From: a virus
Reading direction: 5' to 3' (one strand)
IMG/VR virus record: IMGVR_UViG_3300048912_000294
Coordinates: 1-34,839 of that record
DNA length: 34,839 nucleotides
Shown here: positions 732 to 16,305 of the stretch, in pieces
Layout of the letters: every line of letters starts with the position of its first letter
Numbering within the stretch: the stretch's first letter is position 1
Position numbers and translations under genes: made by a program
Notes under the pieces: generated by a model
The model's database searches: none
What the model was told of the DNA's origin: nothing
What the model saw: the letters and a program-made list of their open reading frames with translations, nothing else

Positions 732-1859
732 ATGCCAATCATCGCCTACCGCGAGCAGCGGTTCAACCGGAAGTCCGAGGTGGTCGTCCAGCAGGCCATC
801 TCGATCATCGAGGACATGCGTGCGCAGGGCTACGTCCTGACCCTCCGCCAGCTCTACTACCAGTTCGTCAGCCGCAACTGGCTGGAGAACACCGAGCAGA
901 GCTACAAGCGCCTCGGCTCCATCGTGTCCGACGCCCGCGAGGTCGGCCGGATCGACTGGAACGACATCGAGGACCGCGGCCGCGCGGCCATCCTCCAGGG
1001 GCACGTGCCCTCGCCCGAGGACGTGCTGAAGGGCATCGAGCACGCCCTGCGCCTCGACCCGTGGCTCGAGCAGGACGTCTACGTCGAGACCTTCGTCGAG
1101 AAGTCCGCGCTCGAGGGCGTGGTCGCGCGGCCCTGCGAGCGGTGGCGCGCCCCGTACATGGCCTGCAAGGGCTACCTGTCCACGTCCGAGGCGTGGCGCG
1201 CCGGCCGGCGCTTCGAGAGGGCCATCGAGCGCGGCAAGCGCCCCGTGCTGATCCACCTGGGCGACCACGACCCCAGCGGCCTGCAGATGACCGAGGACAA
1301 CGACACCCGGCTGGCCCTGTTCGCCCGCCAGGGGGTCGAGGTCCGCCGCATCGCCCTCAACATGGACCAGGTCCAGCAGTACTCGCTGCCGGAGAACCCC
1401 GCTAAGACCACGGACAGCCGGTCGACCGGCTACATCGCCAAGCACGGCCCGCACAGCTGGGAGCTCGACGCGCTCCTGCCGAAGGTCATCGATGACCTCA
1501 TCGACGCGGAGCTGCGGTCGCTCATCGACCACGACAGGTGGGCCGCCACGCTGCAGCGCGAGAAGGACGAGCGCGAGCCGCTCCGCCTCCTGGGCCTGCG
1601 GTGGGACGAGGTCAAGGAGCTGGCGCTCTGCGACGAGGTCCACCCGATGCGGCGCCTGAGGGCAATGGACGAGGCCGCCTTCCAGGTGCGCGGCACCGTC
1701 CGCAGCTACGCCCCGGTCCAACTTGAGGTCCTTAATGCCGCCATGGCCAAGAAGCCGTACGTGCGGCCACCCGTAGCGGCCAATGAGGACGACGCCTACG
1801 ACGAGGTCGACGACCTGTACGACGTCGCGGACCCGCTCGACCCGACCGTTGAGGACTGA
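732..1859 (+). CDS. Spo11/topoisomerase VI subunit A-like protein with TOPRIM domain
   Basis: The 375-residue product has the two-part layout of topoisomerase VI subunit A/Spo11. An N-terminal winged-helix (5Y-CAP) region carries TLRQLYYQFVSR, where Tyr42/Tyr43 sit at the place of the DNA-cleaving tyrosine (compare R-E-I-Y-Y of Topo VI-A). A TOPRIM domain follows, with the invariant Glu in FVEKSAL (Glu123) and the Asp-x-Asp-x-x-Gly motif in GDHDPSG (Asp178, Asp180, Gly183). The length is close to the family's usual 360-400. No GHKL-ATPase B subunit is visible in this window. B-less relatives are known in mobile elements (described as Mini-A), and JetD of Wadjet systems is another relative, but no JetABC is present. 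The likely role is DNA cleavage or topology control in replication or recombination; that is inference. ATG 732 follows the AAGGAGGACTGACCC ribosome-binding region. Confidence 0.85.
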   Translation: MPIIAYREQRFNRKSEVVVQQAISIIEDMRAQGYVLTLRQLYYQFVSRNWLENTEQSYKRLGSIVSDAREVGRIDWNDIEDRGRAAILQGHVPSPEDVLKGIEHALRLDPWLEQDVYVETFVEKSALEGVVARPCERWRAPYMACKGYLSTSEAWRAGRRFERAIERGKRPVLIHLGDHDPSGLQMTEDNDTRLALFARQGVEVRRIALNMDQVQQYSLPENPAKTTDSRSTGYIAKHGPHSWELDALLPKVIDDLIDAELRSLIDHDRWAATLQREKDEREPLRLLGLRWDEVKELALCDEVHPMRRLRAMDEAAFQVRGTVRSYAPVQLEVLNAAMAKKPYVRPPVAANEDDAYDEVDDLYDVADPLDPTVED

Positions 1860-2479: not shown

Positions 2480-2897
2480 AAACCGCACTAAGCACCCCTC
2501 ATACAGCTGCTGGCTGATGATGCGGGCGCGCTGCAATACCCCTGGAGCTACAGGCTATGCCCACTACGGCGGCCGAGGCATACGGGTCTGCGAGCGCTGG
2601 GCCAGCTTTGAGGCCTTCGTCGAGGACATGGGTCCTCGCCCCTCCCCAAGACACACAGTAGAGCGCCGCGATGGCGAAGGGCACTATGAGCCCTCCAACT
2701 GCTTCTGGGCTACTCGCCTTAAGCAGGCGCGCAATCGTCCGGACTACAACAGGCTTGACCTGGATAAGGCTCGAGAACTGCGGCAGCGCCATGCCAAGGG
2801 CGAGAGCATGAAGTCGCTCTCCCGCCAAACAGGCATATCCTACAGCGCCGTGCGATCGGCAATTATCGGCGATACATGGAAGGAAAATGCGGAGTGA
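2454..2897 (+). CDS. HNH-type endonuclease-like protein with C-terminal helix-turn-helix
   Basis: The 147-residue product has the layout of free-standing phage HNH/homing-type proteins. Residues 15-50 (CWLMMRARCNTPG, then YGGRGIRVCERW) lead to a core at 64-86 containing HTVERRDGEGHYEPSNCFWA, where His67, Asp73 and Asn82 fit the HNH finger pattern. The last 40 residues (LRQRHAKGESMKSLSRQTGI and on) look like a small DNA-binding helix-turn-helix of the resolvase/NUMOD kind. Three ATGs (2454, 2460, 2469) are possible starts; all lie in a perfect palindrome and none has a good ribosome-binding site. Base composition is clearly less GC-rich than the neighbours, which suggests acquisition. It overlaps the first codon of the DNA polymerase gene, a common place for homing endonucleases. 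Confidence 0.75.
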   Translation: MPMKFMGIPNRTKHPSYSCWLMMRARCNTPGATGYAHYGGRGIRVCERWASFEAFVEDMGPRPSPRHTVERRDGEGHYEPSNCFWATRLKQARNRPDYNRLDLDKARELRQRHAKGESMKSLSRQTGISYSAVRSAIIGDTWKENAE

Positions 2898-5242
2898 AGA
2901 CCAAGTTTCTCTCAGGCACTCATCTCACTCCGCCCAATGCTCCACGAGCAACGGTGGACTTTGAAACCCGTAGTGCATTCGACATCCTGAAGGGCGGCGG
3001 CTGGAAGTACAGCTGCGACCCGACCACCTCGGTCATGTGCCTCGCGGTCCGCCTGCCCCACTGGCCAGAGGCGCGCCTCTGGCTCCCCCGGTTCCGCTAC
3101 AGCTGGGGCTGGCAGGAGGAGGAGGGCCGCGACGTCCTCGACGAGCTCTTCGTCTGGATCGCACGGGGCGGCCTCGTCGAGGCCCACAACGCCTTCTTCG
3201 AGCAGTCCGTATGGCGCAACATCTGCATGGAGCGCCTCGGCTGGCCCGAGGTCCCGCAGGGCCAGTGGCGCTGCTCGGCCATGAAGGCCTCCGCCCACTC
3301 CCTCCCCCGCTCGCTCGGCGGCGCCTGCGAGGCGCTCGGCCTGGACGTCCAGAAGGACGGCGAGGGCCGCAGGCTCATGCTCAAGCTGTCCAAGCCCCGC
3401 AAGCCGCGCAAGTCCGAGCTGGCCGCCAAGCAGATGTGGCACGACATGGTCGCGGCCGGCGACGACCGCGAGGCCGAGTGCCTCGAGGACCTGCGGCGCA
3501 TGGGCTACGACCCCGAGCACGACCTCTGGTGGCACGACGACCCGGCCGACCTCCAGGGCCTCTACAGCTACTGCCGCACCGACGTCGACTCCGAGCACGG
3601 CCTCAGCGAGGTCCTGCCCGACCCGTCCCAGCTCGAGCTGCGCATCTGGCAGATGGACCAGCGCACCAACCTCCGCGGCGTGCTCGCCGACGTGCGGCTC
3701 GCCAAGGCGGCGCTGCGGCTCGTCCGGCGCGTCACCGACCAGCTCAATGCCGAGCTGGCCTCGATCCTGGGCGACCCGGATGTGCGGGCGACCAACCGCG
3801 CGGCCATCCGCAGGTGGCTCGCCGACCGCGGCGTCCACCTGTCGGACACGCAGGGCAAGACCCTGGACGAGTGGCTGAAGAAGGAGGACTTCCGGGCCGA
3901 GAAGCCGCACTGCCACCGCGTCATCCAGATCGTCCGCGAGGTCAACCGGACGTCGACGGCGAAGTACAAGTCCTGCCTCGCCATGGCGTCCGAGGCCGAC
4001 GGCCGGATGCGCGACCTGATGCTCTACCACGGGGCCTCGACGGGCAGGTGGTCCGGCAAGGGCCTCCAGCCGCACAACTTCCCCCGCGGTGACGTGAAGG
4101 ACGTCGAGCAGCTCTGCGACGTGCTCCTGTCCGAGGACGTGGCGTACATCCGCGCCCTGTACGGCGAGGTCATCAAGGCGCTGTCCGACGCGCTGCGCGG
4201 CCTCATCGTCGCCTCGGAGGGCAAGGACCTCATGGTCGCCGACTACGCGGCCATCGAGGCGCGCGTGATCGCGTGGCTAGCCCACGAGGAGGAGGCGCTG
4301 GACGTCTTCCGCTCCGGCAAGTGCATCTACATGGACATGGCCACTTCGATCTACGGCTACCTCGTCCACGACAAGAAGAAGCAGGCCGACGAGCGCCAGA
4401 TGGGCAAGCAGGCCATCCTCGGCCTCGGCTTCGGCATGGGCTTCGTGACCTTCCTGCTGACGTGCCGCAAGTACGACATCACCTTCACCCGGGAGCAGGC
4501 CCGCCGGATCGTCGGCGACCGGTGGGAGGAGCTCGAGCAGTACATGGAGTTCTACTTCTTCCCAGAGAGGAAGCCGACCTGCCAGAACCCCGCGGCGATG
4601 CGGAAGGTCGGCGCCGGCCGCCGCAACCGCCTCACCAAGGCGGGCCTCGAGCTGAAGCAGGTCGTCCACGAGCTCATCCTGATGAAGCACATCGTGGACG
4701 CCTACCGCGCCAAGTACCAGGGCGTGGCCGCGATGTGGGAGGCCGTCGAGGCCGCCGCCGTCGAGGCCGTGCAGAACCCCGGCAGGCTGGTCCGGTCGCA
4801 CCTCGGGCGCTGCGCCTTCCGCGTCGAGGGCCGGTTCCTCAAGTGCTACCTGCCCAGCGGCAGGCCGCTCTACTACTGCGACCCACGGATCGTCTACCGG
4901 ACGCCGCCGTGGGGCGGGGACGACAAGAAGCCGGTCATCCTGTTCATGGGCGTCAACCCGGTCACCAAGCAGTGGTCGGTCCAGGACACCTACGGCGGGA
5001 AGCTGGTCGAGAACATCACGCAGGCGACGGCGCGGGACCTCATGGCCGAGGCCATGCTCCTGGCGGACGACAGCCTGATCTACGACGTGATCCTCTCTGT
5101 CCACGACGAGCTGATCGCCGAGGTGGAGGTCGGGATCGGCAGCGTCGAGGAGTTCGAGGAGCTCATGTCGACCACGCCGGAGTGGGCCGACGGGTGCCCG
5201 GTCAAGGCAGAGGGCTGGCGTGGGCCCAGGTATCGCAAGTAA
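2894..5242 (+). CDS. Family A DNA polymerase with 3'-5' exonuclease domain
   Basis: This is the replicative polymerase of the phage. From GTG 2894 (GTGA overlap with the HNH stop, AAGGAAAA eight bases upstream) it has 782 residues; an ATG at 2876 is the alternative. The proofreading domain starts with VDFETRS (Asp22, Glu24), continues with EAHNAFFEQSVW and ends with YCRTDVDSEHGL. The polymerase domain has motif A DYAAIEARVIAW (Asp450), motif B RQMGKQAILGLGFG (Arg501, Lys505) and motif C SVHDEL (His737-Asp738-Glu739). The O-helix residue equivalent to Phe762 of E. coli Pol I is Leu509, and the Tyr766 position is Phe513. No 5' nuclease domain is present. The first 30-40 codons share the low GC of the upstream HNH gene, and the switch to normal composition lies near 2990. 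Confidence 0.93.
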   Translation: MKTKFLSGTHLTPPNAPRATVDFETRSAFDILKGGGWKYSCDPTTSVMCLAVRLPHWPEARLWLPRFRYSWGWQEEEGRDVLDELFVWIARGGLVEAHNAFFEQSVWRNICMERLGWPEVPQGQWRCSAMKASAHSLPRSLGGACEALGLDVQKDGEGRRLMLKLSKPRKPRKSELAAKQMWHDMVAAGDDREAECLEDLRRMGYDPEHDLWWHDDPADLQGLYSYCRTDVDSEHGLSEVLPDPSQLELRIWQMDQRTNLRGVLADVRLAKAALRLVRRVTDQLNAELASILGDPDVRATNRAAIRRWLADRGVHLSDTQGKTLDEWLKKEDFRAEKPHCHRVIQIVREVNRTSTAKYKSCLAMASEADGRMRDLMLYHGASTGRWSGKGLQPHNFPRGDVKDVEQLCDVLLSEDVAYIRALYGEVIKALSDALRGLIVASEGKDLMVADYAAIEARVIAWLAHEEEALDVFRSGKCIYMDMATSIYGYLVHDKKKQADERQMGKQAILGLGFGMGFVTFLLTCRKYDITFTREQARRIVGDRWEELEQYMEFYFFPERKPTCQNPAAMRKVGAGRRNRLTKAGLELKQVVHELILMKHIVDAYRAKYQGVAAMWEAVEAAAVEAVQNPGRLVRSHLGRCAFRVEGRFLKCYLPSGRPLYYCDPRIVYRTPPWGGDDKKPVILFMGVNPVTKQWSVQDTYGGKLVENITQATARDLMAEAMLLADDSLIYDVILSVHDELIAEVEVGIGSVEEFEELMSTTPEWADGCPVKAEGWRGPRYRK

Positions 5243-5483: not shown

Positions 5484-6020
5484 ATGAAGACGAACTTCCT
5501 GGCCCTCAAGTCCTTCCGCGACGCCCGGGAGGCGGCGGGCCTCCCGGTCGCGACCGCCGAGCAGCTGAAGCGCACCAAGCGTCTGATCGAGGGTAACCCC
5601 CTCCTCCGCGGCCACCGCACGCCCCTCGGCATGGAGCTGCTGGCCATGCGCCTGCCGCTCGACAAGAACGAGCGCCGGCTGAAGGCCCTCGAGGGCGTCA
5701 AGTACGAGCCGGTCGACGTGCGCAGCGACGAGGCCCTCAAGCAGCTGGCCGAGACCCCCGCGGTCGCCCAGCAGTTCTTCGAGAGCGTCAACCCGCGGGA
5801 CGAGGCCGAGTGGATGGAGGCCGTCTGCGGCGCCAAGGGCATCGACCACGCCACGCTGGTCCGGCAGGGCAAGCGGATCGCCCGCTTCTTCGCCGGCCCG
5901 ACCCGCCGCGTACCCTCCCACATCCGCGAGAAGATGACCACGATGGCGGTCGCCGCCTACGGCATCAACCGGCTGAAGGACGAGGCCGCCAAGGACGCGG
6001 CCGCGGCGGGTGCAGCCTGA
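5484..6020 (+). CDS. Phage hypothetical protein, 178 aa
   Basis: ATG 5484 is chosen because GGAGACAGAC (5474-5483) lies directly in front of it; an ATG at 5472 in the same frame is the alternative. The product is soluble, charged and largely helical: LALKSFRDAREAAGLPVATA at the start, a basic middle, and an Ala/Lys-rich tail (DEAAKDAAAAGAA). It has no catalytic motif that I recognise. The stop TGA overlaps the ATG of the HD-domain gene (TGATG), so the two are probably translationally coupled. The function is unknown, and its place between the polymerase and the nucleotide hydrolase suggests a replication-associated role. Confidence 0.75.
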   Translation: MKTNFLALKSFRDAREAAGLPVATAEQLKRTKRLIEGNPLLRGHRTPLGMELLAMRLPLDKNERRLKALEGVKYEPVDVRSDEALKQLAETPAVAQQFFESVNPRDEAEWMEAVCGAKGIDHATLVRQGKRIARFFAGPTRRVPSHIREKMTTMAVAAYGINRLKDEAAKDAAAAGAA

Positions 6021-6901
6021 TGGGCCGCCTGCTGGACCGGGTGATCCGGGCCTTCGCCTGCGAGCCCGAGGTGCTGCCTCGGGCCGAGTTCAAGACGCCC
6101 CTGCCTTCGGCACCAGGACTTAAGGTCCGCGTGTCCGACCTGGAGCTGGATGCCGACGGGTACGTCAAGGGCTTCCGCCTGGAGGACGGGGACCTCCTCT
6201 CGGTCGCGGCCCCTGTGCCAAACCCGAAGGGCTTTGCCGACTGGCGTAAGGACCTCGGCCCTGAGGGGCGCGAGCGGGTGGACGCCCTCAAGGCGGAGCT
6301 GATGCCGGTCGAGGACGTCGGCATGATGCGGGCCGTCGGCGAGACCCGCAAGGGCGACTGGATGGAGACCTCGACGGGCGTGCGGTTCTACCCGCTGGAC
6401 CCGCGGCCCGAGGAGGTCTACGTCGAGGACATCGCCCACCACCTGTCGCGGATCAACCGCTACAACGGGGCGCAGCGCATCGAGCACTACACGGTCGCGG
6501 AGCACTCCGTCAAGATGGCCATGTGGGTGCTCGTCGACACGAACGACATGCACCTCGCCTTCGAGGCGCTGATGCACGACGCCTGCGAGGCCTACATCGG
6601 CGACATGGTCCGTCCGCTCAAGCGGAACATGCCGGACTTTGAGACGGCCGAGGAGAACCTCTGGAAGAAGGCCATCGCTCCACGCTTCGGCCTGCCCCGC
6701 GTGCTCAGCCCGTTCGTAAAGGCCGCGGACAACCGCATCCTGGTCGACGAGCGGCGGCAGGTCATGAACCCGTCGCCGAACCCCTGGGGGATCGACGGGC
6801 TCGAGCCGCTCGGGATCGTCATCGACGGCTGGCGGCCCGACGACGCCAAGCGCATGTTCCTCCAGACTTTCAACATGCTCTGGGAGGCGATCGAGACGTG
6901 A
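6020..6901 (+). CDS. HD-domain phosphohydrolase (YfbR/5'-nucleotidase-like)
   Basis: The 293-residue product carries the HD-superfamily metal-binding pattern. It has His140/His141 in VEDIAHHLSRINRY, His162 in YTVAEHSVKMA and the His186-Asp187 doublet in EALMHDACEAYIGDMVRP. The segment TGVRFYPLDPRPEEVYVEDI just before is typical of phage proteins related to YfbR, which hydrolyse (deoxy)nucleotides. The first ~110 residues are an extra region without a known motif. Known relatives remove phosphate from dNMPs or dNTPs, so a role in reshaping the nucleotide pool fits the deoxynucleotide genes at 12-18 kb. The substrate cannot be told from sequence. The start overlaps the preceding stop, and the end overlaps the helicase start (GTGA). 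Confidence 0.85.
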   Translation: MGRLLDRVIRAFACEPEVLPRAEFKTPLPSAPGLKVRVSDLELDADGYVKGFRLEDGDLLSVAAPVPNPKGFADWRKDLGPEGRERVDALKAELMPVEDVGMMRAVGETRKGDWMETSTGVRFYPLDPRPEEVYVEDIAHHLSRINRYNGAQRIEHYTVAEHSVKMAMWVLVDTNDMHLAFEALMHDACEAYIGDMVRPLKRNMPDFETAEENLWKKAIAPRFGLPRVLSPFVKAADNRILVDERRQVMNPSPNPWGIDGLEPLGIVIDGWRPDDAKRMFLQTFNMLWEAIET

Positions 6902-8382
6902 CGGACTGGGCCAGCAGGTTCAGGGAGCCTGCCTGGCCCCACCAGGTGGAGGAGTTCGAGGCCCATCGCGACGCGAAGGTCCGGGCCCTCCACTGGCAGC
7001 CCCGCACGGGCAAGTCCAAGGCGATGGTGGACCTCGCCTGCTACCTCTATGAGCAGGGGAAGATCGACGCCGTCCTGGTGCTCGCCCCGATGAACGTCCA
7101 CGCCAACTGGCAGCGCAACCAGATATTCCGGCACACCTGGGAGGGCGTCGACAGCCGAGCCTTCACCTGGAGCTCCACGGACCGCCGGACGGACCCGAAG
7201 GCCTACGACAGGGCCTTCGGCGGCCTCCTGGCGCACGAGGGCCTCGCCTGGTTCGCCGTGAACGCGGAGGCGACCACGCTCGCCGTCGCCAAGCCCTTCC
7301 TGTCCGCCTTCGTCCGGCGCCGCCGCATCCTGCTCGTGGTCGACGAGACCCACGAGTGGCGCAGGCCGTCCTCCAAGCGGTCCTCCTACGCCCGCGGCCT
7401 CGCCCGCAAGGTGGCCTACGTGCGCTGCCTCTCCGGCACCATGGTCGACAACTCCCCCTTCCACGCGTGGGCCCAGTACGAGCTGCTGGCGCCGGCCGCG
7501 CTCGGCTACAAGGACTACGGGGACTTCGAGCGCCACTTCGGCATCTGGGAGAAGCGCCAGATCAAGGTCAAGGGCGGCAGGACCCGGCTCGTCCCGGCCT
7601 GCACCGGCTACCGCAACCAGGACGAGCTCCGCGAGCGGATGGCGCGCTGGACCAGCTACGTCCACAGGTGCGACGTCCCGGGCCTCCCGCCCCTGGTCAA
7701 CTCCAGGACCGAGTTCGAGCTGACGGCCGCCCAGCGTCGGGTCTACAACGACCTGGTCAAGGGGGCCATCGTCAAGCTGGACAACGGCGAGTACATGGGC
7801 GAGGCCGAGGGCGCGGTGCTCATCACACGCCTGCAGCAGGCCGCGTCGGGCTTCGCGGTCGACGAGGACGGCGCGGTCGTCGACCTGGTCAAGGACGAGG
7901 AGAACCCCCGCCTGCTGGCCCTGGAGGCCGAGCTCGCGCTCGTCGGCCGCAAGACAGTGATCTACTGCCGCTACCGCGAGGACGTGGTCCGGGTCATGGC
8001 AGCCTGCCGTCGATGGGGCTATAAGCCCGTCGACTACTACGGCGGAACCCCGAAGGCTCTTCGGGGCGACCACGAGAGGCTCTTCCAGGAGGACGAGTCC
8101 GTGGGCCCGCTCGTCGGCAACGTCAAGGCCTGCGGGGCTGGGCTTGAGTTCAGCAGGGGCACCGACATCATCTGGTACAGCCACACCCACGGTGACCTCA
8201 TCGGCCGCAGGCAGGGCGACGAGCGCTGCACCAAGGTCGGAGGGGAGTCCGTTGGCGTCTGCGACTTTATTGCCTTGGGCACGGTGGACGAACGCATGAT
8301 CCGAGACCAGGAGGAGAAGATAGACGTGACTGAGTACCTGACAGGCGACGGCCTCCGTCGCTACCTGGAGCTGCTGCGTTGA
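6898..8382 (+). CDS. SNF2/DEAD-type superfamily 2 helicase
   Basis: The 494-residue ATPase has two RecA-like halves. Motif I is QPRTGKSKAM (residues 34-43), motif Ia VLVLAPMNVHANW, motif II VVDETHEW (Asp149-Glu-Thr-His) and motif III CLSGTMVDN. The second half has YCRYREDVVRVM, YYGGTP, the motif V region KACGAGLEFSRGTDIIWYS and the motif VI region GRRQGDERCTKVG. This is the pattern of compact phage SNF2-like helicases that often sit beside the DNA polymerase and may open the origin or remodel DNA during replication or recombination. GTG 6898 overlaps the HD gene stop (GTGA). The next gene starts with a TTG inside its stop codon. Confidence 0.9.
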   Translation: MTDWASRFREPAWPHQVEEFEAHRDAKVRALHWQPRTGKSKAMVDLACYLYEQGKIDAVLVLAPMNVHANWQRNQIFRHTWEGVDSRAFTWSSTDRRTDPKAYDRAFGGLLAHEGLAWFAVNAEATTLAVAKPFLSAFVRRRRILLVVDETHEWRRPSSKRSSYARGLARKVAYVRCLSGTMVDNSPFHAWAQYELLAPAALGYKDYGDFERHFGIWEKRQIKVKGGRTRLVPACTGYRNQDELRERMARWTSYVHRCDVPGLPPLVNSRTEFELTAAQRRVYNDLVKGAIVKLDNGEYMGEAEGAVLITRLQQAASGFAVDEDGAVVDLVKDEENPRLLALEAELALVGRKTVIYCRYREDVVRVMAACRRWGYKPVDYYGGTPKALRGDHERLFQEDESVGPLVGNVKACGAGLEFSRGTDIIWYSHTHGDLIGRRQGDERCTKVGGESVGVCDFIALGTVDERMIRDQEEKIDVTEYLTGDGLRRYLELLR

Positions 8383-8723
8383 GCCGCGTGTTCGTCGTCC
8401 AGCGACCGGCCACCCGATCCGGCGAGCGTGGCTGCTGGGTCGAGAAGTTCGACCTCGCGCCGGCCGAGGCCTTCGGCGAGCTCGTGACGATCCTGCCCTA
8501 CGGGAACATCTCCCGGGAGCCGAGGGCGCTCCAGGCCGTCAAGAGCACCGTGTCCGGGGCGCTGTGCGCCTTCAACCCGGATGAGGACTACGTCCTGCCG
8601 GTGGGAGACCCGGTGGCGATCGCCATCGTGCTGATGGAGCTCGGCGCCCGCCGCTTCCACCCCGTGAGGGCGCTCAAGTTCGACCGCCGCCGCGGCTGCT
8701 ACGAGAGCTACGTCGTCAGCTAG
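8379..8723 (+). CDS. Phage hypothetical protein with TTG start, 114 aa
   Basis: No ATG or GTG fits near the start. TTG 8379 overlaps the helicase stop (TTGA), the same arrangement as at 32309, which supports it. The product begins SRVFVVQRPATRSGERGCW and has a middle of mixed strands and helices (GDPVAIAIVLMELGARRF). It has no membrane segment or metal site, and I do not recognise the family. It closes the tightly overlapped replication operon, since 87 non-coding bases follow. Function unknown. Confidence 0.7.
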   Translation: MSRVFVVQRPATRSGERGCWVEKFDLAPAEAFGELVTILPYGNISREPRALQAVKSTVSGALCAFNPDEDYVLPVGDPVAIAIVLMELGARRFHPVRALKFDRRRGCYESYVVS

Positions 8724-8810
8724 GGACTGCTGGCCCCAATCCTCCCCCGCTTGGGGGCATGAGGGGTCCCTGGAGCGACACCCAAGCAACCCGACCACCA
8801 GGAGTTTCAA

Positions 8811-9059
8811 ATGAGCGAAGAGAAGGCACCCAAGCGCGGCATCGGCACCGTGATCGTCGAGCAGCTGCGCGCCGGCGCGACCAACGAGGAGGCGCTCGCC
8901 GCCGTGAAGGTTGAATTCCCGGAGAGCAGCACGTCGAACACGACCGTCAGCTGGTACCGGAACGACCTCCGCAAGAAGGGCGAGGCGATCCCGACCGCCG
9001 CCGAGGCCCGCAGGGCGAAGGCCCCTGCCGAGGCGCCGGCGGAAGACCCGCTCGACTGA
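8811..9059 (+). CDS. Small phage protein with WYRNxLRKKG motif, 82 aa
   Basis: ATG 8811 has CCAGGAG ten bases upstream. Residues 8-55 form a compact helical unit: IGTVIVEQLRAGATNEEALA, then VKVEFPESSTSNTTVSWYRN, then DLRKKG. The same kind of unit (hydrophobic helix, EFPE-S-T, RWY) occurs at the C-terminus of the protein at 15454. I have seen similar small domains in other phages without an assigned function. The basic motif and size would suit DNA binding, which is inference. An Ala/Glu/Pro-rich tail follows (AEAPAEDPLD). The gene is immediately followed by a strong terminator and so is the last gene of its operon. Confidence 0.8.
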   Translation: MSEEKAPKRGIGTVIVEQLRAGATNEEALAAVKVEFPESSTSNTTVSWYRNDLRKKGEAIPTAAEARRAKAPAEAPAEDPLD

Positions 9060-9101
9060 GCTTAGAGCCGCGGAGGACCTGTCTCCCCTCCGCCGGATCG
9101 G

Positions 9102-9131
9102 AAAGAGCCGCCTTTGGGCGGCTCTTTTTTT
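9102..9131 (+). terminator. Strong rho-independent terminator
   Basis: AAAGAGCCGCC (9102-9112) pairs perfectly with GGCGGCTCTTT (9117-9127) around the loop TTTG, and a run of seven T (9125-9131) follows. It ends the first rightward operon right after the gene at 8811. A new promoter follows within 25 bases. Confidence 0.95.
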
Positions 9132-9152
9132 AGCCTTGACCGCTTTTCTCCA

Positions 9153-9181
9153 TTTACGCCGCATGGAACGCGGCCTATAAG
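9153..9181 (+). promoter_or_regulatory. Sigma70-type promoter, rightward
   Basis: TTTACG (9153-9158) and TATAAG (9176-9181) are separated by 17 bases, close to the sigma70 consensus, just downstream of a terminator and ahead of ATG 9207. The flanking words CTTTTCTCCATTTACG and ATAAGGGGTC recur almost unchanged in the leftward promoter at 20328-20356. The spacer holds a short dyad GCCGC (9158-9162) / GCGGC (9170-9174) that could be an operator. Predicted start is near 9188. Confidence 0.8.
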
Positions 9182-9206
9182 GGGTCATCAACACGGAGAC
9201 AGACAG

Positions 9207-9515
9207 ATGCCCGCCATGATCGTCATGAAGAAGACCCCTCAGGGCTTCAAGCTGATCCCCGCCACCGAGTGCCGCGGCAGCAGCTTCCGCGTGATGGGCC
9301 ACAGCGACAGCATGGCCTTCCGCACGAAGGAGGTCATGGATGAGCTGATGCTGGTGGCCAAGCACCACCGCCTGTACAACGCCTCCCTCAAGGAGCTGTT
9401 CGACCTCGCCATCCGCAAGAACGATGGGTCCAAGCTGTTCGGCAACCCCATGCAGGACGTCAAGCTGCTCCCCTCCTCGGGCGAGACCCCCGCCCGCCTC
9501 CTCATCAACCCCTAA
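9207..9515 (+). CDS. Phage hypothetical protein, 102 aa
   Basis: ATG 9207 follows GGAGACAGAC (9195-9204) and is the first gene behind the promoter at 9153-9181, with a predicted leader of about 20 bases. The product is small, basic and soluble. It starts PAMIVMKKTPQGFKLIPATE, has a helical middle (TKEVMDELMLVAKHHRLYNA) and a region NDGSKLFGNPMQDVKLLP. It has no recognised domain. As the first gene of a strongly initiated unit it is probably made in quantity. Homology search would be needed to say more than conserved phage protein. Confidence 0.8.
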   Translation: MPAMIVMKKTPQGFKLIPATECRGSSFRVMGHSDSMAFRTKEVMDELMLVAKHHRLYNASLKELFDLAIRKNDGSKLFGNPMQDVKLLPSSGETPARLLINP

Positions 9516-9525
9516 GGAAGACAGA

Positions 9526-10347
9526 ATGGCAACTGACCCACGAGACGTCGCCTCAGCGCCCATGGCGTTCGGCGACGGCAGCCTCAGCGACCGCGACAGG
9601 CTCCGCGAGCCCAACGTCGTCAGCGACGAGGTCCGCCACGGCCGCATCTACTGGCTCTACGGGGCGAGCCCCGACCCGCTCCACCCGAGCGAGGTGGCCG
9701 ACCCTCCGTGCAGCGGATGGGGAGCGGTGTTCCTCCTCGACGAGACCGACAGGACCGTCCGCCTCTACGCCCCGTGGGAGATGAAGTCGTGGGTGGTCAG
9801 CAAGGGGGCCTACGAGCTGCTCTCGCTGCAGGGCACCTTCGAGGGGTTCAACATGCGGGCCCGACAGTACTTCATGCTCTCCCTGCCCAAATACTGGGCG
9901 GAGGCGAAGCTGCGCGGGTGGGACAAGGACTTCGCCACGGCGGAGCGCGTCATGGCCGCCGTCGGCTGCAAGCCCCCTCCTGAGGAGGAGTGGCGCCGCC
10001 TCGCGGGGCAGGCCGTCCAGCGCTCGAGGCCGAGCCTCGTCCTCGCGTCGGGCTCGGCCCCGGTGATGCAGCAGGCGGTCGGCGGCAAGCCGCCCGCCAA
10101 GGAGGCCGAGGGCCTCAAGAAGCCCGTCAAGCGGACGGGCCGCAAGGGCGAGGTGCTGGCCTTCTTCATGGAGAAGAGCTCCATAAATGAGGCCATGGCC
10201 AAGTTCGGCGTCACGCGGTCCAACCTGCTCAGCCAGCTGTTCCTGCTGCGCAAGGACCACGGGATCGGCTACACGGTCGAGGGCGACAGCGCGAGGGTCG
10301 AGCTGCCTGCGGGCATTACGGACCCGTTCGAGAAGGAGGACGCATAG
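9526..10347 (+). CDS. Phage protein with C-terminal winged-helix-like domain, 273 aa
   Basis: ATG 9526 is preceded by AAGGAAG (9514-9520). Residues 30-150 are a globular region (GRIYWLYGASPDPLHPSE, later LYAPWEMKSWVVSKGAYELL) that I cannot assign. Residues 150-215 are a linker rich in Lys, Pro and Ala. Residues 213-265 look like a winged helix: GEVLAFFMEKSSINEAMAKF, then GVTRSNLLSQLFLLRKDHGI, then GYTVEGDSARVELP. This is the kind of domain found in phage DNA-binding accessory proteins. A role in DNA binding or regulation is inference. The next gene starts directly after its stop. Confidence 0.75.
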   Translation: MATDPRDVASAPMAFGDGSLSDRDRLREPNVVSDEVRHGRIYWLYGASPDPLHPSEVADPPCSGWGAVFLLDETDRTVRLYAPWEMKSWVVSKGAYELLSLQGTFEGFNMRARQYFMLSLPKYWAEAKLRGWDKDFATAERVMAAVGCKPPPEEEWRRLAGQAVQRSRPSLVLASGSAPVMQQAVGGKPPAKEAEGLKKPVKRTGRKGEVLAFFMEKSSINEAMAKFGVTRSNLLSQLFLLRKDHGIGYTVEGDSARVELPAGITDPFEKEDA

Positions 10348-10605
10348 ATGTACGACAGCACGGGTAGGGCCGTTCCGATGGCCAAGCAGGTGGCCCTCAA
10401 GAAGGCCCAGGACTTCACGACCGCGGCGGAGATGGGCATGCGGGCCCGCAGGCGGATGTACGAGGCGCTGTTCAACATGCCCAACATCTCGGACGGCGCG
10501 CTCGACGCCGCGAGGCTGGATGTGCTCTCGGCCATGGAGGTCGTGCTCGACGCCCAGCGGGAGCAGAACCGCATCATCCGCGACATCGTCTACCCCAGTG
10601 GCTAG
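10348..10605 (+). CDS. Small helical phage protein, 85 aa
   Basis: ATG 10348 directly follows the stop of the previous gene, with AAGGAGG (10333-10339) inside that gene's end as ribosome-binding site. The product is almost all helix, with a basic first half (AKQVALKKAQDFTTAAEMGM, RARRRMYEALF) and a second amphipathic helix (LDVLSAMEVVLDAQREQNRI). It has no cysteine and no membrane segment. It may form a coiled-coil dimer. The function is unknown. Its end overlaps the start of the next small gene by eight bases. Confidence 0.75.
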   Translation: MYDSTGRAVPMAKQVALKKAQDFTTAAEMGMRARRRMYEALFNMPNISDGALDAARLDVLSAMEVVLDAQREQNRIIRDIVYPSG

Positions 10606-10753
10606 GCACTGGTCCGAGCAGCTGTCGTGCTTCGCCTGCGGCAAGGCCTTCCGGTCTGCGGTCGCCGAGGCGAGGCACCGCCACAACTTCCCCGTCCTCT
10701 GCACGCGCAACAAGGCGTTCGAGGCCTTCATGAAGGAGCACGGCAATGGCTAA
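10598..10753 (+). CDS. C2H2-type zinc-finger microprotein, 51 aa
   Basis: GTG 10598 overlaps the preceding stop (GTGGCTAG). The 51 residues contain CFACGKAFRSAVAEARHRHN, a Cys-x2-Cys-x12-His-x-His spacing close to a classical zinc finger, and a further Cys in FPVLCTRN. The C-terminal helix (KAFEAFMKEHGNG) carries AAGGAG, which serves as ribosome-binding site for the next gene. Zinc-binding microproteins are common in phages as DNA-binding or host-takeover factors, but no target can be named. It is one of three Cys-rich small proteins in the rightward half. Confidence 0.7.
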   Translation: MARHWSEQLSCFACGKAFRSAVAEARHRHNFPVLCTRNKAFEAFMKEHGNG

Positions 10754-11030
10754 GAAGGCGTCATACCTCACCTTCGAAGAGCGGATGCCTGTCCGTATGG
10801 ACAGCGTGACGAGGTGGTGGTCCGTGCGGTCGGCCTGCGGAGAGCACCTGCTCGGCCACGTGATGTGGTGGACCCGCTGGCGTCGGTACGTCTTCGTGCC
10901 GGTGGCCGATCCGGCGACCGATACGCTGCACGACGCCAAGTGCCTGCGAGAGCTCGCTGACTTCCTAGACGAGCAGACGAAGGCCCAGCGAGCCGACGCG
11001 GAGGCGCGCCGTGCAGCTAAGGCTCCCTGA
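10746..11030 (+). CDS. Phage hypothetical protein, 94 aa
   Basis: ATG 10746 has AAGGAG (10734-10739) upstream and overlaps the preceding gene by eight bases. The first half is Trp- and Arg-rich (VTRWWSVRSACGEHLLGHVM, WWTRWRRYVFVPV), suggesting a beta-rich nucleic-acid-binding or small globular fold. The second half is an amphipathic charged helix (CLRELADFLDEQTKAQRADA). No known domain is recognised. Its end overlaps the GTG start of the next gene by 20 bases. Function unknown. Confidence 0.7.
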   Translation: MAKKASYLTFEERMPVRMDSVTRWWSVRSACGEHLLGHVMWWTRWRRYVFVPVADPATDTLHDAKCLRELADFLDEQTKAQRADAEARRAAKAP

Positions 11031-11301
11031 GCCGACCGGCTCCCGGGACCCCACGGGGACGCACATCTCCATCCGGGGTCCACTCCTCAAGGAGTGGCAG
11101 TTCGAGGCCTTCGGCGAGCTCCTGTGGGGCTATGGATGCCCCGACGACGCGCTCGAGCGCGTCCTGTCCAGCCTCGCCGCCTGCGGCCGCTACGACTGCG
11201 TGGTCGTGACGCGGGCGTTCCCCTCCCTCCGCGCCGGGCTGTCGGACTTCGGGTATGAGCTCATCACGCAGGCGACCTGCGAATACCGCAAGGCGGCCTA
11301 A
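11011..11301 (+). CDS. Phage hypothetical protein, 96 aa
   Basis: GTG 11011 lies inside the end of the previous gene. The product reads ISIRGPLLKEWQFEAFGELL, then CPDDALERVLSSLAACGRYD, then CVVVTRAFPSLRAGLSDFGY, a compact alpha/beta protein with three scattered cysteines. I do not recognise it. Its last 47 bases overlap the probable start of the glycosylase gene in another frame. Confidence in the gene is moderate and rests on base usage and on the tight packing around it. Confidence 0.65.
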   Translation: MQLRLPEPTGSRDPTGTHISIRGPLLKEWQFEAFGELLWGYGCPDDALERVLSSLAACGRYDCVVVTRAFPSLRAGLSDFGYELITQATCEYRKAA

Positions 11302-11731
11302 GGCCGGCAGGCTCTTCCAGGAGGACCTCCTCAGCGAGCCCTTCTGGCTGGTCGTGGCCTGCCAGCTCGTCAACCTCACTACATGGGACCAGGCGCGCCC
11401 AGCCCTAGAGTGGCTGATGGTGCGCTTCGTCGTGCCCCGCGTGCTCGCGGCCGCCGACCCGTCCAGCCTCCACGACGCGCTCAGGCCCCTCGGCCTCTGG
11501 CGCCGTCGATCCGCCACCCTCGTCAAGTTCGCCCAAGCATGGGTCCTCCATCCGCCCCAGACGGCCCAGGAGCTTAGGCTGATGCCAGGCTGTGGGAATT
11601 ATGCGTGTGACTCGTGGAGCATCTTCGTCGAAGGGAAGACGGACCTATCAGTGTCCGACGGCAAATTGCTCTGGTTCTTGCAGCAGCTGCGAGAAGCGCA
11701 AGAAGCGGCTAGCCCAGCAACGAGCCTATAG
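11255..11731 (+). CDS. MBD4-like HhH-GPD DNA glycosylase
   Basis: The 158-residue product resembles the glycosylase domain of MBD4. FQEDLLSEPFWLVVACQLVN matches its first helices, LRPLGLWRRRSATLVKFAQA matches PLGLYxxRAKTIxKFS, and LMPGCGNYACDSWSIFVEG matches the helix-hairpin-helix and the catalytic Asp (GIGKYGNDSYRIF in MBD4), giving Asp119 here. GKLLWFLQQL fits the end of that domain. MBD4 removes T or U from T:G and U:G pairs, above all where 5-methylcytosine has deaminated. No iron-sulfur cysteines are present, unlike endonuclease III. ATG 11255 is the only usual start and gives a basic N-terminus (MSSSRRRPANTARRPKAGRL); its ribosome-binding site is weak. The 3' end overlaps an HNH gene in another frame, and GC drops from about 11580 on. 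Confidence 0.75.
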   Translation: MSSSRRRPANTARRPKAGRLFQEDLLSEPFWLVVACQLVNLTTWDQARPALEWLMVRFVVPRVLAAADPSSLHDALRPLGLWRRRSATLVKFAQAWVLHPPQTAQELRLMPGCGNYACDSWSIFVEGKTDLSVSDGKLLWFLQQLREAQEAASPATSL

Positions 11732-12311
11732 CAAGAAGCGCTACGAGACCGACCCGCAGTTCGCGGAGAAGCACAAAGCTAAAGCCCGCAAATGGCACGC
11801 GGATAATACCGAGCAGGCTGCTGCGTACAAGCGGTCTTGGCGCGCAGATAATCCCACCTATTTTCGAGACTACATGCGCGAGCTGCTCACGCAGGATCGT
11901 TGGCGCATTCATAATGCGGTGAGTAGCCGTCTGTCTAAGGCAATGAAAGGAAAAAGGTCTAAGACCCTGGAGAGACTTCTGGGCTGCACTATCCCAGAGT
12001 TGTTGGTCCATCTCGAGGGACAGTTCCAAGTAGGGATGACCTGGGAAAACTATGGCTTGGGAGGCTGGGAGGTCGACCACGTCAAGCCTTTAAGGGCATT
12101 TGACCTTGAAGACCCAGATCAGTTAGCGGAGGCAATGCACTTCACCAATCTCCAGCCTCTATGGGCGCCGGAGAACAGGTCGAAGGGCGGACGCTACCCC
12201 TGCGACAAGGAGCAAAGACAGCATGGCAGTCGACATCTTCCGCCTCACGGCGGACTTCAATCGGGAGGTGATCGGGTACCCGACGCCGGCGAGGCCGAGC
12301 CGCCTCTCTGA
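11601..12311 (+). CDS. HNH homing-endonuclease-like protein overlapping both neighbours
   Basis: From ATG 11601 (GTG 11592 and 11607 also possible) the frame encodes a basic N-terminus with cysteines (CSGSCSSCEKRKKRLAQQR), a Lys-rich helical stretch (YSKKRYETDPQFAEKHKAKA) and an HNH core. The core runs from LGGWEVDHVKPLRAFDLEDP to HFTNLQPLWAPENRSKGG, with the Asp-His pair, the conserved NLQPLW and the final Asn. This is the arrangement of intron-type and free-standing HNH endonucleases. Base composition is lower in GC than both neighbours, as in the HNH gene at 2454. It overlaps the glycosylase by about 130 bases and runs on for 89 bases into the next gene, where the sequence looks like a shadow (HGSRHLPPHGG). 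The true start and end are therefore uncertain and the gene may be decaying. Confidence 0.7.
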   Translation: MRVTRGASSSKGRRTYQCPTANCSGSCSSCEKRKKRLAQQRAYSKKRYETDPQFAEKHKAKARKWHADNTEQAAAYKRSWRADNPTYFRDYMRELLTQDRWRIHNAVSSRLSKAMKGKRSKTLERLLGCTIPELLVHLEGQFQVGMTWENYGLGGWEVDHVKPLRAFDLEDPDQLAEAMHFTNLQPLWAPENRSKGGRYPCDKEQRQHGSRHLPPHGGLQSGGDRVPDAGEAEPPL

Positions 12312-13140
12312 GGCCCGCAAGGCGTGGGCCAAGCTCTGCCTCCTCGAGGAGGTGAAGGAGTTCGACGACGTCGGCAAGGGCCCCCTCTTCATCCACTCCG
12401 AGCAGGAGATGCTCGAGGACGAGGTCGATGCGCTCATCGACCTGATCTACTTCGCGGGCGGCCGCCTCTACGAGATGGGCGTCGACGGCGGCGCGCACTT
12501 CCTCGAGGTGCACTGCCGCAACATGGCCAAGGAGCGCGGCGAGAAGTCCACCCGGCACGGCTCGGCGGGCTACGACGCGGTCAAGCCCGAGGGCTGGGTC
12601 GGCCCCGACCACGCGTCGGTGCTCACCCGTCGGCCGAAGGTGATCCTGCTCGGCCACGCGCGGCACGGCAAGGACACGGTCGCCGAGCTGCTCCGCGACG
12701 TGCACGGCTTCGCCTTCCAGTCCTCCTCGATGTTCTGCGCCGAGCGGGTCCTGATGCCGTACTTCGCGGCCCACGGCGTGCCCTACGCCTCGGTCGAGGA
12801 GTGCTACGAGGACCGCGTCAACCACCGGTCGACCTGGTTCGAGCGGATCGAGGACTACAACCGCGACGACCCGTCCAGGCTGTGCCGCGAGCTGTTCGAG
12901 ACGAACGACGTCTACGTGGGAATGCGCTCGGCCTACGAGTTCGCCGAGGCCCGCAAGCACGCCGACTTCGTCGTCTGGGTGGACGCCATGCAGCGGAAGG
13001 ACCCTGAGCCGCGCAGCAGCTTCAACATCGACTTCGACCCGGAGACGATGATCCTGCTCGACAACAACGGCCCTGAGGTCGACCTGGTGAACAACGTCCA
13101 CGCCCTGGTCGACCACCTGCGCGAGGAGTTCCGCCCATGA
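12223..13140 (+). CDS. Fusion of MazG-like NTP pyrophosphohydrolase and dNMP kinase
   Basis: ATG 12223 has AAGGAG nine bases upstream. Residues 1-105 are MazG-like: helix one carries LCLLEEVKEF (Glu42, Glu43, Glu46) and helix two LEDEVDALIDLIYFAGGRLY (Glu65, Glu67, Asp69, Asp73), the metal-binding acidic pattern of enzymes that split NTPs to NMP and pyrophosphate. Residues 138-305 are a P-loop kinase: VILLGHARHGKDTVAELL (Gly144-Thr152), SSSMFCAERVLMPYF, and a region MRSAYEFAEARKHADFVVWV like phage deoxynucleoside monophosphate kinases. The first half would turn a dNTP into a dNMP, and the second would re-phosphorylate a dNMP. Placed directly before a dCMP-type C5-transferase (ATGA overlap), this parallels T4 gp56, gp42 and gp1. 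Substrate assignments are inference. Confidence 0.8.
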   Translation: MAVDIFRLTADFNREVIGYPTPARPSRLSEARKAWAKLCLLEEVKEFDDVGKGPLFIHSEQEMLEDEVDALIDLIYFAGGRLYEMGVDGGAHFLEVHCRNMAKERGEKSTRHGSAGYDAVKPEGWVGPDHASVLTRRPKVILLGHARHGKDTVAELLRDVHGFAFQSSSMFCAERVLMPYFAAHGVPYASVEECYEDRVNHRSTWFERIEDYNRDDPSRLCRELFETNDVYVGMRSAYEFAEARKHADFVVWVDAMQRKDPEPRSSFNIDFDPETMILLDNNGPEVDLVNNVHALVDHLREEFRP

Positions 13141-13976
13141 GGAACAACAACTTCCGATGGCAATACGAGGGGCTGCTCGGCAAGCTCCTCTCGACGACCT
13201 GCCCTGCGGCCCGGGAGACCAACGCCCGGACCGGGGAGGTCATCCGGGCCCTCGACCCCTTCAGCTTCAGCCTCGACCTGTCGGACGGCAAGCTGCCCGT
13301 CTGCGGCGTCCGGAAGACCTTCCCGCGCTCGGCCGCGGCCGAGGTGGCGTGGTTCCTCCTGGGCACGAAGAGCTCGGAGTTCATCCGTCGCTACGCGCCC
13401 TTCTGGGACAAGTTCCTGGAGGAGGACGGGGACACGGTCGCCGGCGCCTACGGCTATCGGTGGAGGCACCACTTCGGCAGGGACCAGATCGCCGACGCGA
13501 TCGCGACGCTGCAGCACGACCCGACGAACCGGCGGGTCTGGATCAGCGCGTGGGACCCAGCGCAGGACGGCCTAGGCCGTCCGAGCAAGAACGTGCCCTG
13601 CCCCGTCGGCTTCACGCTGTCGATCAGCGAGGGCCGGCTCAACTCGGCGCTGATGATCCGGTCGTCGGACGTCTTCGTGGGCCTCCCGTACGACGTCATG
13701 GGCCACGCGCTCCTGATGGCTGCGGCGGCCCAGAGCCTCGGCTCCGCGCTCGGCCGGATGCACGTCACCCTCGCCCACCCGCACCTCTACGAGAAGCACC
13801 TGGACATGGCCTTTGAGGCCCTGCGTGGCCAGCCGAGCGACGACACGATCTACCTGCCGGTCTGGGACGTCGACGAGATAACCCAGGAGCCGGAGATGTA
13901 CGTCGAGGCCGTCGCCAAGATGGCCAAGAAGATCGCGCAGCCGTCCTTCGCCTGCAAGCCTGAGGTGATAGTCTGA
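13137..13976 (+). CDS. Thymidylate-synthase-family dCMP C5-(hydroxy)methyltransferase candidate
   Basis: The 279-residue protein has the thymidylate synthase fold signatures: AWFLLGTKSSEF, YGYRWRHHFGRDQI, RRVWISAWDP, catalytic Cys155 in KNVPCPVGF, RSSDVFVGLPYD and LAHPHLYEKHLD. Two substrate-reading residues differ from true thymidylate synthase. The Asn of GLPFN, which recognises dUMP, is Asp186 (GLPYD), and the His after the catalytic Cys is Pro156. Asp at that position is the known mark of dCMP hydroxymethylases and converts thymidylate synthase toward dCMP in mutants. I therefore favour dCMP as substrate. Whether it adds CH3 or CH2OH is open; the DHFR-like gene two genes down favours methyl. 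An ordinary thymidylate synthase remains possible because a dCMP deaminase follows. It is coupled to both neighbours (ATGA, TGATG). Confidence 0.8.
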   Translation: MRNNNFRWQYEGLLGKLLSTTCPAARETNARTGEVIRALDPFSFSLDLSDGKLPVCGVRKTFPRSAAAEVAWFLLGTKSSEFIRRYAPFWDKFLEEDGDTVAGAYGYRWRHHFGRDQIADAIATLQHDPTNRRVWISAWDPAQDGLGRPSKNVPCPVGFTLSISEGRLNSALMIRSSDVFVGLPYDVMGHALLMAAAAQSLGSALGRMHVTLAHPHLYEKHLDMAFEALRGQPSDDTIYLPVWDVDEITQEPEMYVEAVAKMAKKIAQPSFACKPEVIV

Positions 13977-14425
13977 TGGGAAACTGGGACGCACGCTTCC
14001 TGGGCATGGCCCAGTTCGTCTCCACGTGGAGCAAGGACCCGCGCAAGCAGGTCGGCGCCGTCGTGGTATCCCCCGACCGCCGGCGCTTCAGCGCGGGCTT
14101 CAACGGACTGCCGAGGGACTGGGAGGCCCTCTCGGCCCGGATGGGCGTCGGCATCATGGACAAGGCGACCAAGAACCGGTACAGCCTCCACGCCGAGGCG
14201 AACGCCATAGCGCAGGCCGGGGCCGAGCTCAACGGCTGGACGATCTACGTGACCGAGGCCCCGTGCCTCGACTGCGCGCTCGCCATCCACCGCGCGGGCA
14301 TCGCCAAGGTGGTGACCGTCCCGATCGACGAGGGCAGCTCCTGGGCCGCCGACCAGATCGACGCCCAGAGGCTGCTCGCGGCCGCGGGCATTCCGGTCCT
14401 CACGGTGGAGGTGTCCGATGCTTAG
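13976..14425 (+). CDS. Deoxycytidylate (dCMP) deaminase family protein
   Basis: The 149-residue product has the zinc-binding deaminase signature LHAEANAI (His72, Glu74) and APCLDCALAI (Pro96, Cys97, Cys100), with the upstream motifs DPRKQVGAVVVSP and GFNGLPR typical of dCMP deaminase. Members convert dCMP to dUMP, the substrate of thymidylate synthase. Next to a TS homologue that looks dCMP-specific, it could balance dTTP supply against modified dCTP, as T4 Cd does, or instead act on the modified nucleotide. TGATG overlap joins it to the TS-like gene, and it overlaps the DHFR-like gene by eight bases. Confidence 0.88.
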   Translation: MGNWDARFLGMAQFVSTWSKDPRKQVGAVVVSPDRRRFSAGFNGLPRDWEALSARMGVGIMDKATKNRYSLHAEANAIAQAGAELNGWTIYVTEAPCLDCALAIHRAGIAKVVTVPIDEGSSWAADQIDAQRLLAAAGIPVLTVEVSDA

Positions 14426-14930
14426 GCTCATCCTCGCGGTCAGCCAGGACGGCTTCCTGGCGAAGGGGCCTGCAGATGATATGCGGTGGACGTCGAAGGA
14501 CGACAAGCGCATGTTCCGGGCCCTCACATCGGTCGGCGGCGTGCTCGGCGCAGGCAGCAGGACTTTCGACCAGCTGCCGAAGCTGCCGGGGAGGCGGGTC
14601 ATCCGCCTGACCTCCTCGCCCCGGGCTGAGGACGCCCCCGTCGGACGCGCGGGGGCGCTGGAGATGACGCTCGGCCGGTTCTGCCACGCTCACCCCGACG
14701 CTTGGCTCATCGGCGGCCCGACGATAGCGCGGGAGGCCCTGGAGCTGGGCATGGTGGGCGAGGTCTTCATGTGCAGGCAGATCGGCACCTACCTCGGCGA
14801 GGGCATGCCCGACCTGGTCACGCCCTACGTCGAGGGCCGACGCGGCGGCGAGGGCGGCCGCGGGCGTCCATGGGGCAGGCAGGTCGTCTACTCCAAGGAC
14901 TGCCTGGAGGTGGTGCGATGGGCAGCCTGA
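14418..14930 (+). CDS. Dihydrofolate reductase-like protein
   Basis: The 170-residue product starts LRLILAVSQDGFLAKGPADD and continues MRWTSKDDKRMFRALT, GGVLGAGSRTFDQLP, RRVIRLTSSP and WLIGGPTIAREAL. These are the DHFR/RibD-C order of first strand, substrate loop, NADPH-binding segments and the Gly-Gly turn. Length fits bacterial DHFR. The C-terminal third is rich in Gly and Arg. DHFR restores tetrahydrofolate after thymidylate-synthase-type methylation, a step that hydroxymethylation does not need. ATG 14418 lies inside the end of the deaminase gene, and the stop overlaps the next gene by 13 bases. Catalytic residues were matched by eye only. Confidence 0.8.
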   Translation: MLRLILAVSQDGFLAKGPADDMRWTSKDDKRMFRALTSVGGVLGAGSRTFDQLPKLPGRRVIRLTSSPRAEDAPVGRAGALEMTLGRFCHAHPDAWLIGGPTIAREALELGMVGEVFMCRQIGTYLGEGMPDLVTPYVEGRRGGEGGRGRPWGRQVVYSKDCLEVVRWAA

Positions 14931-15373
14931 GGGAGGACCGGTCCAAGGAGACGAGCCTCTGGCAGTGGCTGAAGCGCGCGGGCGATAGGATGGGGAAGCT
15001 GTGCGACCTCCAGCGCATCGAGGACAGCACGAAGAAGGGCACCCCCGACGTCGAGGGCTGCCTCGACGGGGAGACCTTCTGGTGCGAGCTTAAGGTGGCC
15101 CACGAGATGGCCGGCGGGAGGTGGAGGGTGAAGCTCACCACCGCCCAGGTCCTCACCGCCCGCCGCAGGCGGCGGGCGCGCGGGCGTTCCTGGGTGCTCG
15201 TCCGCGTGGGCTCAAGCCCTTGCCGGCACTACCTTTTCGACGGGCTCGACGTCGAGCAGCTGCATGAAGCAGCCGCACCGCTGACTGAGGTGCAGCTGCA
15301 ATCGGGCTCCGTGCTCGCGGGCGCGGATGCCAGTGCGAGCACTATCATCGAAACGCTGGCAGGAAAGACCTAG
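14918..15373 (+). CDS. PD-(D/E)XK nuclease, Holliday-junction resolvase/VRR-NUC type
   Basis: The 151-residue product has KKGTPDVEGCLDGETFWCEL followed by Lys, giving Asp44, Glu57 and Lys59, the metal and catalytic triad of PD-(D/E)XK nucleases. A Lys/Trp-rich first helix precedes it (ETSLWQWLKRAGDRMGKL), and TTAQVLTARRRRRARGRSWV with the strand VLVRVG follows. This size and order fit phage resolvases and VRR-NUC proteins that cut branched DNA. Its role would be to resolve replication or recombination intermediates. ATG 14918 lies inside the DHFR gene end. The C-terminal 40 residues (SGSVLAGADASAST) carry no motif. The last codons lie upstream of a possible promoter. Confidence 0.78.
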   Translation: MGSLREDRSKETSLWQWLKRAGDRMGKLCDLQRIEDSTKKGTPDVEGCLDGETFWCELKVAHEMAGGRWRVKLTTAQVLTARRRRRARGRSWVLVRVGSSPCRHYLFDGLDVEQLHEAAAPLTEVQLQSGSVLAGADASASTIIETLAGKT

Positions 15374-15380
15374 CCGCGGA

Positions 15381-15435: not shown

Positions 15436-15453
15436 CATACAGGAGACAGACCA

Positions 15454-16026: not shown

Positions 16027-16029
16027 GCC

Positions 16030-16254: not shown

Positions 16255-16265
16255 TCCTCAGGCAT

Positions 16266-16294: not shown

Positions 16295-16305
16295 CAGCCA
16301 ACATC

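Follow-up and report, generated by a model that had tools for sequence, protein, structure and literature searches.

The window, by which we mean the whole stretch of DNA that was analysed, comprises the 34,839 bases of the IMG/VR record IMGVR_UViG_3300048912_000294, a partial virus record. On its plus strand an ATG opens a reading frame of 375 amino acids situated exactly at 732-1859. The features of this gene, together with two genes of its surroundings, are listed here with the evidence for each.

732..1859, plus strand: Mini-A gene, Topo VI-A/Spo11-like, 375 aa (reading frame, phrog_6247, NP1 homology, structure model, Foldseek)
840..860, plus strand: 5Y-CAP motif TLRQLYY, aa 37-43 (conservation; likeness to the Top6A motif; tyrosine alignment by hhalign)
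858-860, plus strand: Tyr43, putative catalytic tyrosine (conserved in 119/119)
1095..1109, plus strand: TOPRIM glutamate motif VEKSA, aa 122-126, with the putative catalytic Glu123 (conservation; structural matches to the TOPRIM region)
1260..1280, plus strand: TOPRIM motif GDHDPSG, aa 177-183, with Asp178 and Asp180 as putative metal ligands (conservation; aligned with Top6A DGDPYG)
1458..1475, plus strand: WELDAL motif, aa 243-248, with Glu244 as candidate clasp partner of Arg39 (conservation; motif likeness to Top6A E342)
1758..1856, plus strand: acidic disordered C-terminal tail, aa 343-375, beyond the conserved core (pLDDT; end of the phrog_6247 match)
2876..5242, plus strand: family A DNA polymerase (PolA), context and not part of Mini-A (PF00476, E 3.9e-18; phrog_17, E 3e-98)
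6898..8382, plus strand: SNF2-type helicase of the same module, context (PF00176, E 1.4e-08; phrog_62, E 6.6e-76; syntenic in relatives)

In a profile search the window protein matched phrog_6247, a family annotated as DNA topoisomerase, over aa 5-296 with an E value of 8.5e-103. Because of this match a chance origin of the reading frame is excluded. By tblastn 74 annotated phage records were found to match the window protein, the best with about 55% identity, and among them are Rhodobacter, Roseobacter, Microbacterium, Brevundimonas, Pseudomonas, Salmonella, and Flavobacterium phages. An alignment-based scan yielded at least 588 relatives on the viral contigs of one virus collection and 213 on bacterial and archaeal genome contigs; the latter are presumably prophages. 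The protein of Pseudomonas phage NP1 is 38.9% identical across 80% of the query (tblastn) and itself matches phrog_6247 with an E value of 1.2e-137. Since a review draws this NP1 protein as the Mini-A exemplar in its Figure 4, citing Takahashi et al. 2020 (PMC7614492), the window protein is, judged by homology, a member of the already described Mini-A family. In reviews Mini-A figures as a shortened homologue of Topo VI-A that occurs in viruses of archaea and in bacteriophages, and no archaeal Mini-A is reported there as characterised (PMC7614492). The attributes of the family are found here as well: the gene is encoded by viruses, as the virus record and the 74 phage records show, and the CAP tyrosine, the TOPRIM glutamate, and the DxD motif (Y43, E123, D178, and D180) are invariant in 119 sequences. 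In the literature searched we found neither a functional study of a phage Mini-A nor a measured activity for any Mini-A.

General domain libraries were of little help. No Pfam family matched the window protein, the Pfam model TP6A_N was detected in just four of 119 relatives (best E 0.0013), and a sequence search of the PDB returned nothing credible, with the single sequence and with the profile alike. The control genome of Methanosarcina acetivorans also matched phrog_6247, the match being due to its own Top6A or else to a Mini-A integrated there. In one bacterial assembly, a Phycisphaerae MAG (G053), a Mini-A locus (L137) coexists with a distinct Top6A gene of the cellular type (L183).

Conservation was assessed in an alignment of 119 diverse sequences, the relatives being 40-59% identical to the window protein. 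The residues R39, Q40, Y43, E123, K124, D178, D180, P181, G183, and W243-A247, including E244, are conserved in 119 of 119. The sequence-only reading had recognised a Spo11/Topo VI-A-like protein of a mobile element with its catalytic motifs in place, and both points hold: LRQLYY (within aa 37-43), VEKSA (aa 122-126), and GDHDPSG (aa 177-183) are present with all key residues retained. It had further named Tyr42/Tyr43 as the residues on which covalent DNA-protein complexes might depend. Not one relative lacks both, but they are not equally conserved: Tyr42 is kept in 117 of the 119 sequences and is a phenylalanine in two. For this reason Tyr43 is the likely nucleophile, as far as conservation can tell. 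In the Top6A protein of Methanosarcina mazei the last residue of the motif TLRELYY is the catalytic Y106 (PMC13040014), and the window motif TLRQLYY ends in Tyr43 in the same manner. When the profile was compared with 21 Top6A proteins by hhalign, the tyrosine, the TOPRIM glutamate, and the DxD motif were aligned in order, in a weak match (E 0.0063, probability 6%).

The gene is under strong purifying selection, with dN/dS values between the Mini-A copies of the Roseobacter phages RDJL Phi 1 and RDJL Phi 2 of 0.02 (89 codons) and 0.09 (209 codons). In RDJL Phi 1 (L176, 6001-6905) a single-base frameshift relative to Phi 2 splits the Mini-A reading frame. As the coding constraint persists on either side of the deviant base, the frameshift probably stems from faulty sequencing or arose very recently. 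The annotation of RDJL Phi 1 labels the N-terminal part of Mini-A as an antisense open reading frame.

An AlphaFold model computed on the 119 sequences reached a mean pLDDT of 87.8 and a pTM of 0.79, with pLDDT values of about 40-50 in the C-terminal tail (aa 343-375). Long acidic tails are likewise borne by two relatives (L001 and L002). In a Foldseek search against the PDB the significant matches were Topo VI-A entries only, led by 1d3y (E 2.7e-05). With the structural aligner VIA, Topo VI-A (Z 10.6), MksG (10.3), JetD (10.0), and Spo11 (8.3) were found at or near the top. The VIA match spans only the model residues 98-264, which is the TOPRIM region, and the winged-helix part is situated outside of it. 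A few unrelated Rossmann-like designs score near Spo11, so that the TOPRIM match alone cannot tell the family. The structural comparison suggested earlier thus bore out the TOPRIM fold, which is shown by prediction. For the putative 5Y-CAP fold, the model has helices at residues 13-31, 38-47, and 55-70, with Tyr43 within the second. Both the structural and the family comparisons could have spoken against the assignment to Topo VI-A/Spo11, and they support it.

That no B subunit is encoded in the window would by itself mean little, the window being a partial record of 34.8 kb. Relatives were therefore included in the search for a GHKL ATPase. The Topo VI-B transducer (PF09239), HATPase_c_3 (PF13589), and HATPase_c (PF02518) were detected in none of 50 Mini-A virus contigs. 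PF02518 and PF09239 were also absent from eight complete phage genomes (RcRudolph, RDJL Phi 1, Commonplace, Delta, Pam3, NP1, SPN19, and FPSV-S1) and from the RDJL Phi 2 record, and the positive controls of these searches gave the expected matches. With 50 contigs and eight complete genomes negative, the missing ATPase is a property of the family and not an artefact of contig ends. The suspicion that no B subunit is encoded alongside the protein has been put to the test in complete relatives and has held. An A2B2 enzyme of the Topoisomerase VI type, with a GHKL/transducer B subunit, does not fit these phages since no Top6B is encoded by the relatives with complete genomes. The 375-aa reading frame itself gave no match to a GHKL domain in Pfam or PHROG, and it thus lacks the ATPase part that marks Topoisomerase VIII.

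The Mini-A gene precedes the PolA gene (2876-5242) by 1 kb and is read in the same direction; its place upstream of the polymerase had been noticed from the sequence. PolA was found near Mini-A at four further loci (L001, L015, L175, and L176), and the window and its closest relatives have a replication module of Mini-A, PolA, SNF2 helicase, and a Pam3 gp32-like protein in common, to which several of these relatives add a MazG/kinase-like protein and thymidylate synthase. In RcRudolph an exonuclease (phrog_69) and a Gp2.5-like annealing protein (phrog_112) are encoded upstream, and in NP1 Sak4 follows Mini-A directly downstream with a Cas4-type exonuclease nearby. Across 148 dereplicated loci PolA was detected within 8 kb of Mini-A in 18 and the SNF2 helicase in 20. 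An obligate partner gene was considered and rejected as far as tested, as the neighbours vary: no PHROG family is represented more than three times among the immediate neighbours (136 downstream, 133 upstream), and the most frequent of the conserved families located within 1.5 kb is found at eight of the 148 loci. These counts are lower bounds, since neighbours were chosen by a simple reading-frame rule instead of by gene calling and contig ends cut off many of the loci.

Recombination genes were counted on 25 Mini-A contigs and on 25 random large viral contigs of similar size that are free of Mini-A. The Gp2.5-like family phrog_112 was found on six Mini-A contigs and on none of the controls (p = 0.02), an excess that may reflect the lineage of the window. 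Sak4 (phrog_124, E < 1e-6) was found on four contigs of either set, and RecT (phrog_561) on none of the 50. Taken together, annealing proteins are encoded on 10 of 25 Mini-A contigs and four of 25 controls; with p = 0.11, in statistics that ignore phylogeny, the expected excess is not significant. A general tie of Mini-A to recombination genes is therefore unproven. The sequence-only reading had derived from the position upstream of the polymerase a use in replication start or recombination; with PolA nearby at 18 of 148 loci and no significant excess of annealing proteins this role is not established. Its observation was right, and the role that it proposed is hypothetical.

Some other genes of the window deserve mention. 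A reading frame of 147 aa at 2454-2897 overlaps the start of PolA, lies in a stretch of lower GC content (62%), appears HNH-endonuclease-like by eye, and has a weak helix-turn-helix match (HTH_58) below the cut-off. No homologue of it was detected in the syntenic relatives, for which reason it may be a mobile insertion of the homing type. A second reading frame that is HNH-endonuclease-like by eye, with no significant Pfam match, is found at 11592-12311 between HhH-GPD glycosylase-like and MazG/kinase-like genes. The region 6014-18075 carries a dense set of genes for nucleotide metabolism, namely a YfbR-like 5'-nucleotidase, MazG/kinase-like, thymidylate synthase, dCMP deaminase, DHFR-like, and ribonucleotide reductase genes.

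We propose, with a probability of roughly 0.55, that phage Mini-A is an A subunit of the type IIB topoisomerase/Spo11 lineage that acts alone, that is, a dimeric, tyrosine-dependent enzyme making double-strand breaks for replication or recombination without ATP gating. On the basis of the invariant residues and the fold, Mini-A would act as a homodimer in which the winged-helix Tyr43 attacks the DNA, assisted by a magnesium ion held by Glu123, Asp178, and Asp180. The product would be a double-strand break with the protein covalently attached to the 5' ends. Stand-alone cleavage has a precedent because MksG, a relative that is likewise B-less, cuts DNA without ATP (PMC10123090). As there is no control by an ATPase, restraint on cleavage must come from elsewhere; it might be exerted by the shape of the DNA (bends, crossings) together with a clasp of Arg39 and Glu244. 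In M. mazei Topo VI a clasp between R102 and E342 keeps the tyrosine off the DNA, and the E342Q mutant is cleavage-prone (PMC13040014). The Mini-A residues W243-A247 within the WELDAL motif resemble the E-x-x-A motif around E342, and by this motif E244 is the likely counterpart of E342; it is not so by profile alignment, as hhalign placed the Mini-A tail differently and did not align E244 with E342. By motif, Mini-A thus appears to retain the two residues of the 'electrostatic clasp' of Topo VI, a detail that is new. The breaks might then feed recombination or recombination-dependent replication of the phage DNA, for which the genomic context gives a weak hint. In a further-reaching and quite tentative version, Mini-A would be the bacterial-virus counterpart of Spo11, a programmed double-strand break enzyme with the Arg39-Glu244 clasp as restraint in place of an ATPase gate, and would initiate recombination-dependent replication in a large number of tailed phages.

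We considered three alternatives to a stand-alone break-forming enzyme. Mini-A could be a true topoisomerase that borrows a host GHKL protein (e.g., GyrB, ParE, or MutL) or relaxes DNA free of ATP, thereby untangling the replicating phage DNA instead of leaving breaks in it. The annotation of phrog_6247 as DNA topoisomerase and the location within a replication module in the window are in line with this, as is a report that the related Topo VIII of M. marina relaxes DNA independently of ATP (PMC7614492). Nevertheless, we regard it as unlikely: neither the 50 contigs nor the eight complete genomes encode a GHKL or transducer gene, and Mini-A is devoid of the N-terminal stretch of Top6A. With the tyrosine at position 43 instead of 106, Mini-A is too short at this end to accommodate an equivalent of the DNA latch at 44-67.

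The structural matches to JetD and MksG, which are among the best obtained, and a weak match of the NP1 Mini-A to the PADLOC JetD model (E 0.0014) would rather suggest a nuclease directed against host or competing DNA, serving host take-over or the exclusion of rival phages and plasmids. The CAP tyrosine, however, is absent in JetD and MksG (PMC10586767, PMC10123090) and present in every one of the 119 Mini-A sequences, and none of JetA, JetB, and JetC is among the top 25 families listed for the 136 downstream and 133 upstream neighbours, which makes such a nuclease a doubtful candidate, at rather long odds. Finally, the label 'DNA binding protein' in some actinophages and the frameshift in RDJL Phi 1 could be taken to indicate that Mini-A is a remnant which has lost its catalytic activity, or is dispensable, and does no more than bind DNA. 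This is very improbable given that all catalytic positions are invariant in 119 diverse proteins, that dN/dS is as low as 0.02-0.09, and that coding constraint flanks the deviant base of RDJL Phi 1 on either side.

Meiotic recombination is initiated by Spo11, among whose relatives are Topo VI and the Wadjet nuclease. The way in which a Topo VI-A protein could break DNA without an ATPase has an immediate bearing on how Spo11 arose. Mini-A, a minimal form of Topo VI-A provided by nature, is abundant in phages, at least 588 relatives having been found in one virus collection. The role of Tyr43 as nucleophile, the absence of a phage-encoded ATPase, and a clasp possibly replacing ATP gating can now be tested.

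Compared with the known systems, the window protein has JetD and MksG of Wadjet as structural matches (Z about 10) and would, like them, be a dimeric CAP and TOPRIM nuclease related to Top6A and independent of a GHKL subunit. Those proteins work with an SMC motor and have no CAP tyrosine, whereas in Mini-A the tyrosine is retained and no SMC gene is among the neighbour families listed. Spo11, a relative that makes breaks, shares the fold (Z 8.3 in the structural match to the TOPRIM region); it differs in working with partners of the Rec102/104 or TOP6BL type, none of which was seen here, and there is no match at the sequence level. Topoisomerase VIII is also a type IIB protein of mobile elements. 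It keeps an ATPase part, mostly with A and B fused, in contrast to the window Mini-A, which is without any.

With Top6A the protein shares the motif TLR[EQ]LYY, the TOPRIM glutamate and DxD motif, the best structural match and, apparently, both clasp residues. Unlike Top6A, Mini-A has no detectable Top6B partner, its N terminus is about 60 residues shorter and lacks the DNA latch region 44-67 (latch: PMC13040014), and the Pfam models of Top6A fail to reach the window protein. From the NP1 Mini-A the window protein differs in being about 75 aa longer at the C-terminal end, with the acidic tail, and in the position of its gene 1 kb upstream of PolA, the NP1 gene adjoining Sak4. In all other respects compared, the Mini-A of NP1 (Takahashi et al. 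2020; PHROG 6247) is alike: both are phage-encoded proteins of the same profile family, with about 39% identity over 80%, the same motifs, and no B subunit.
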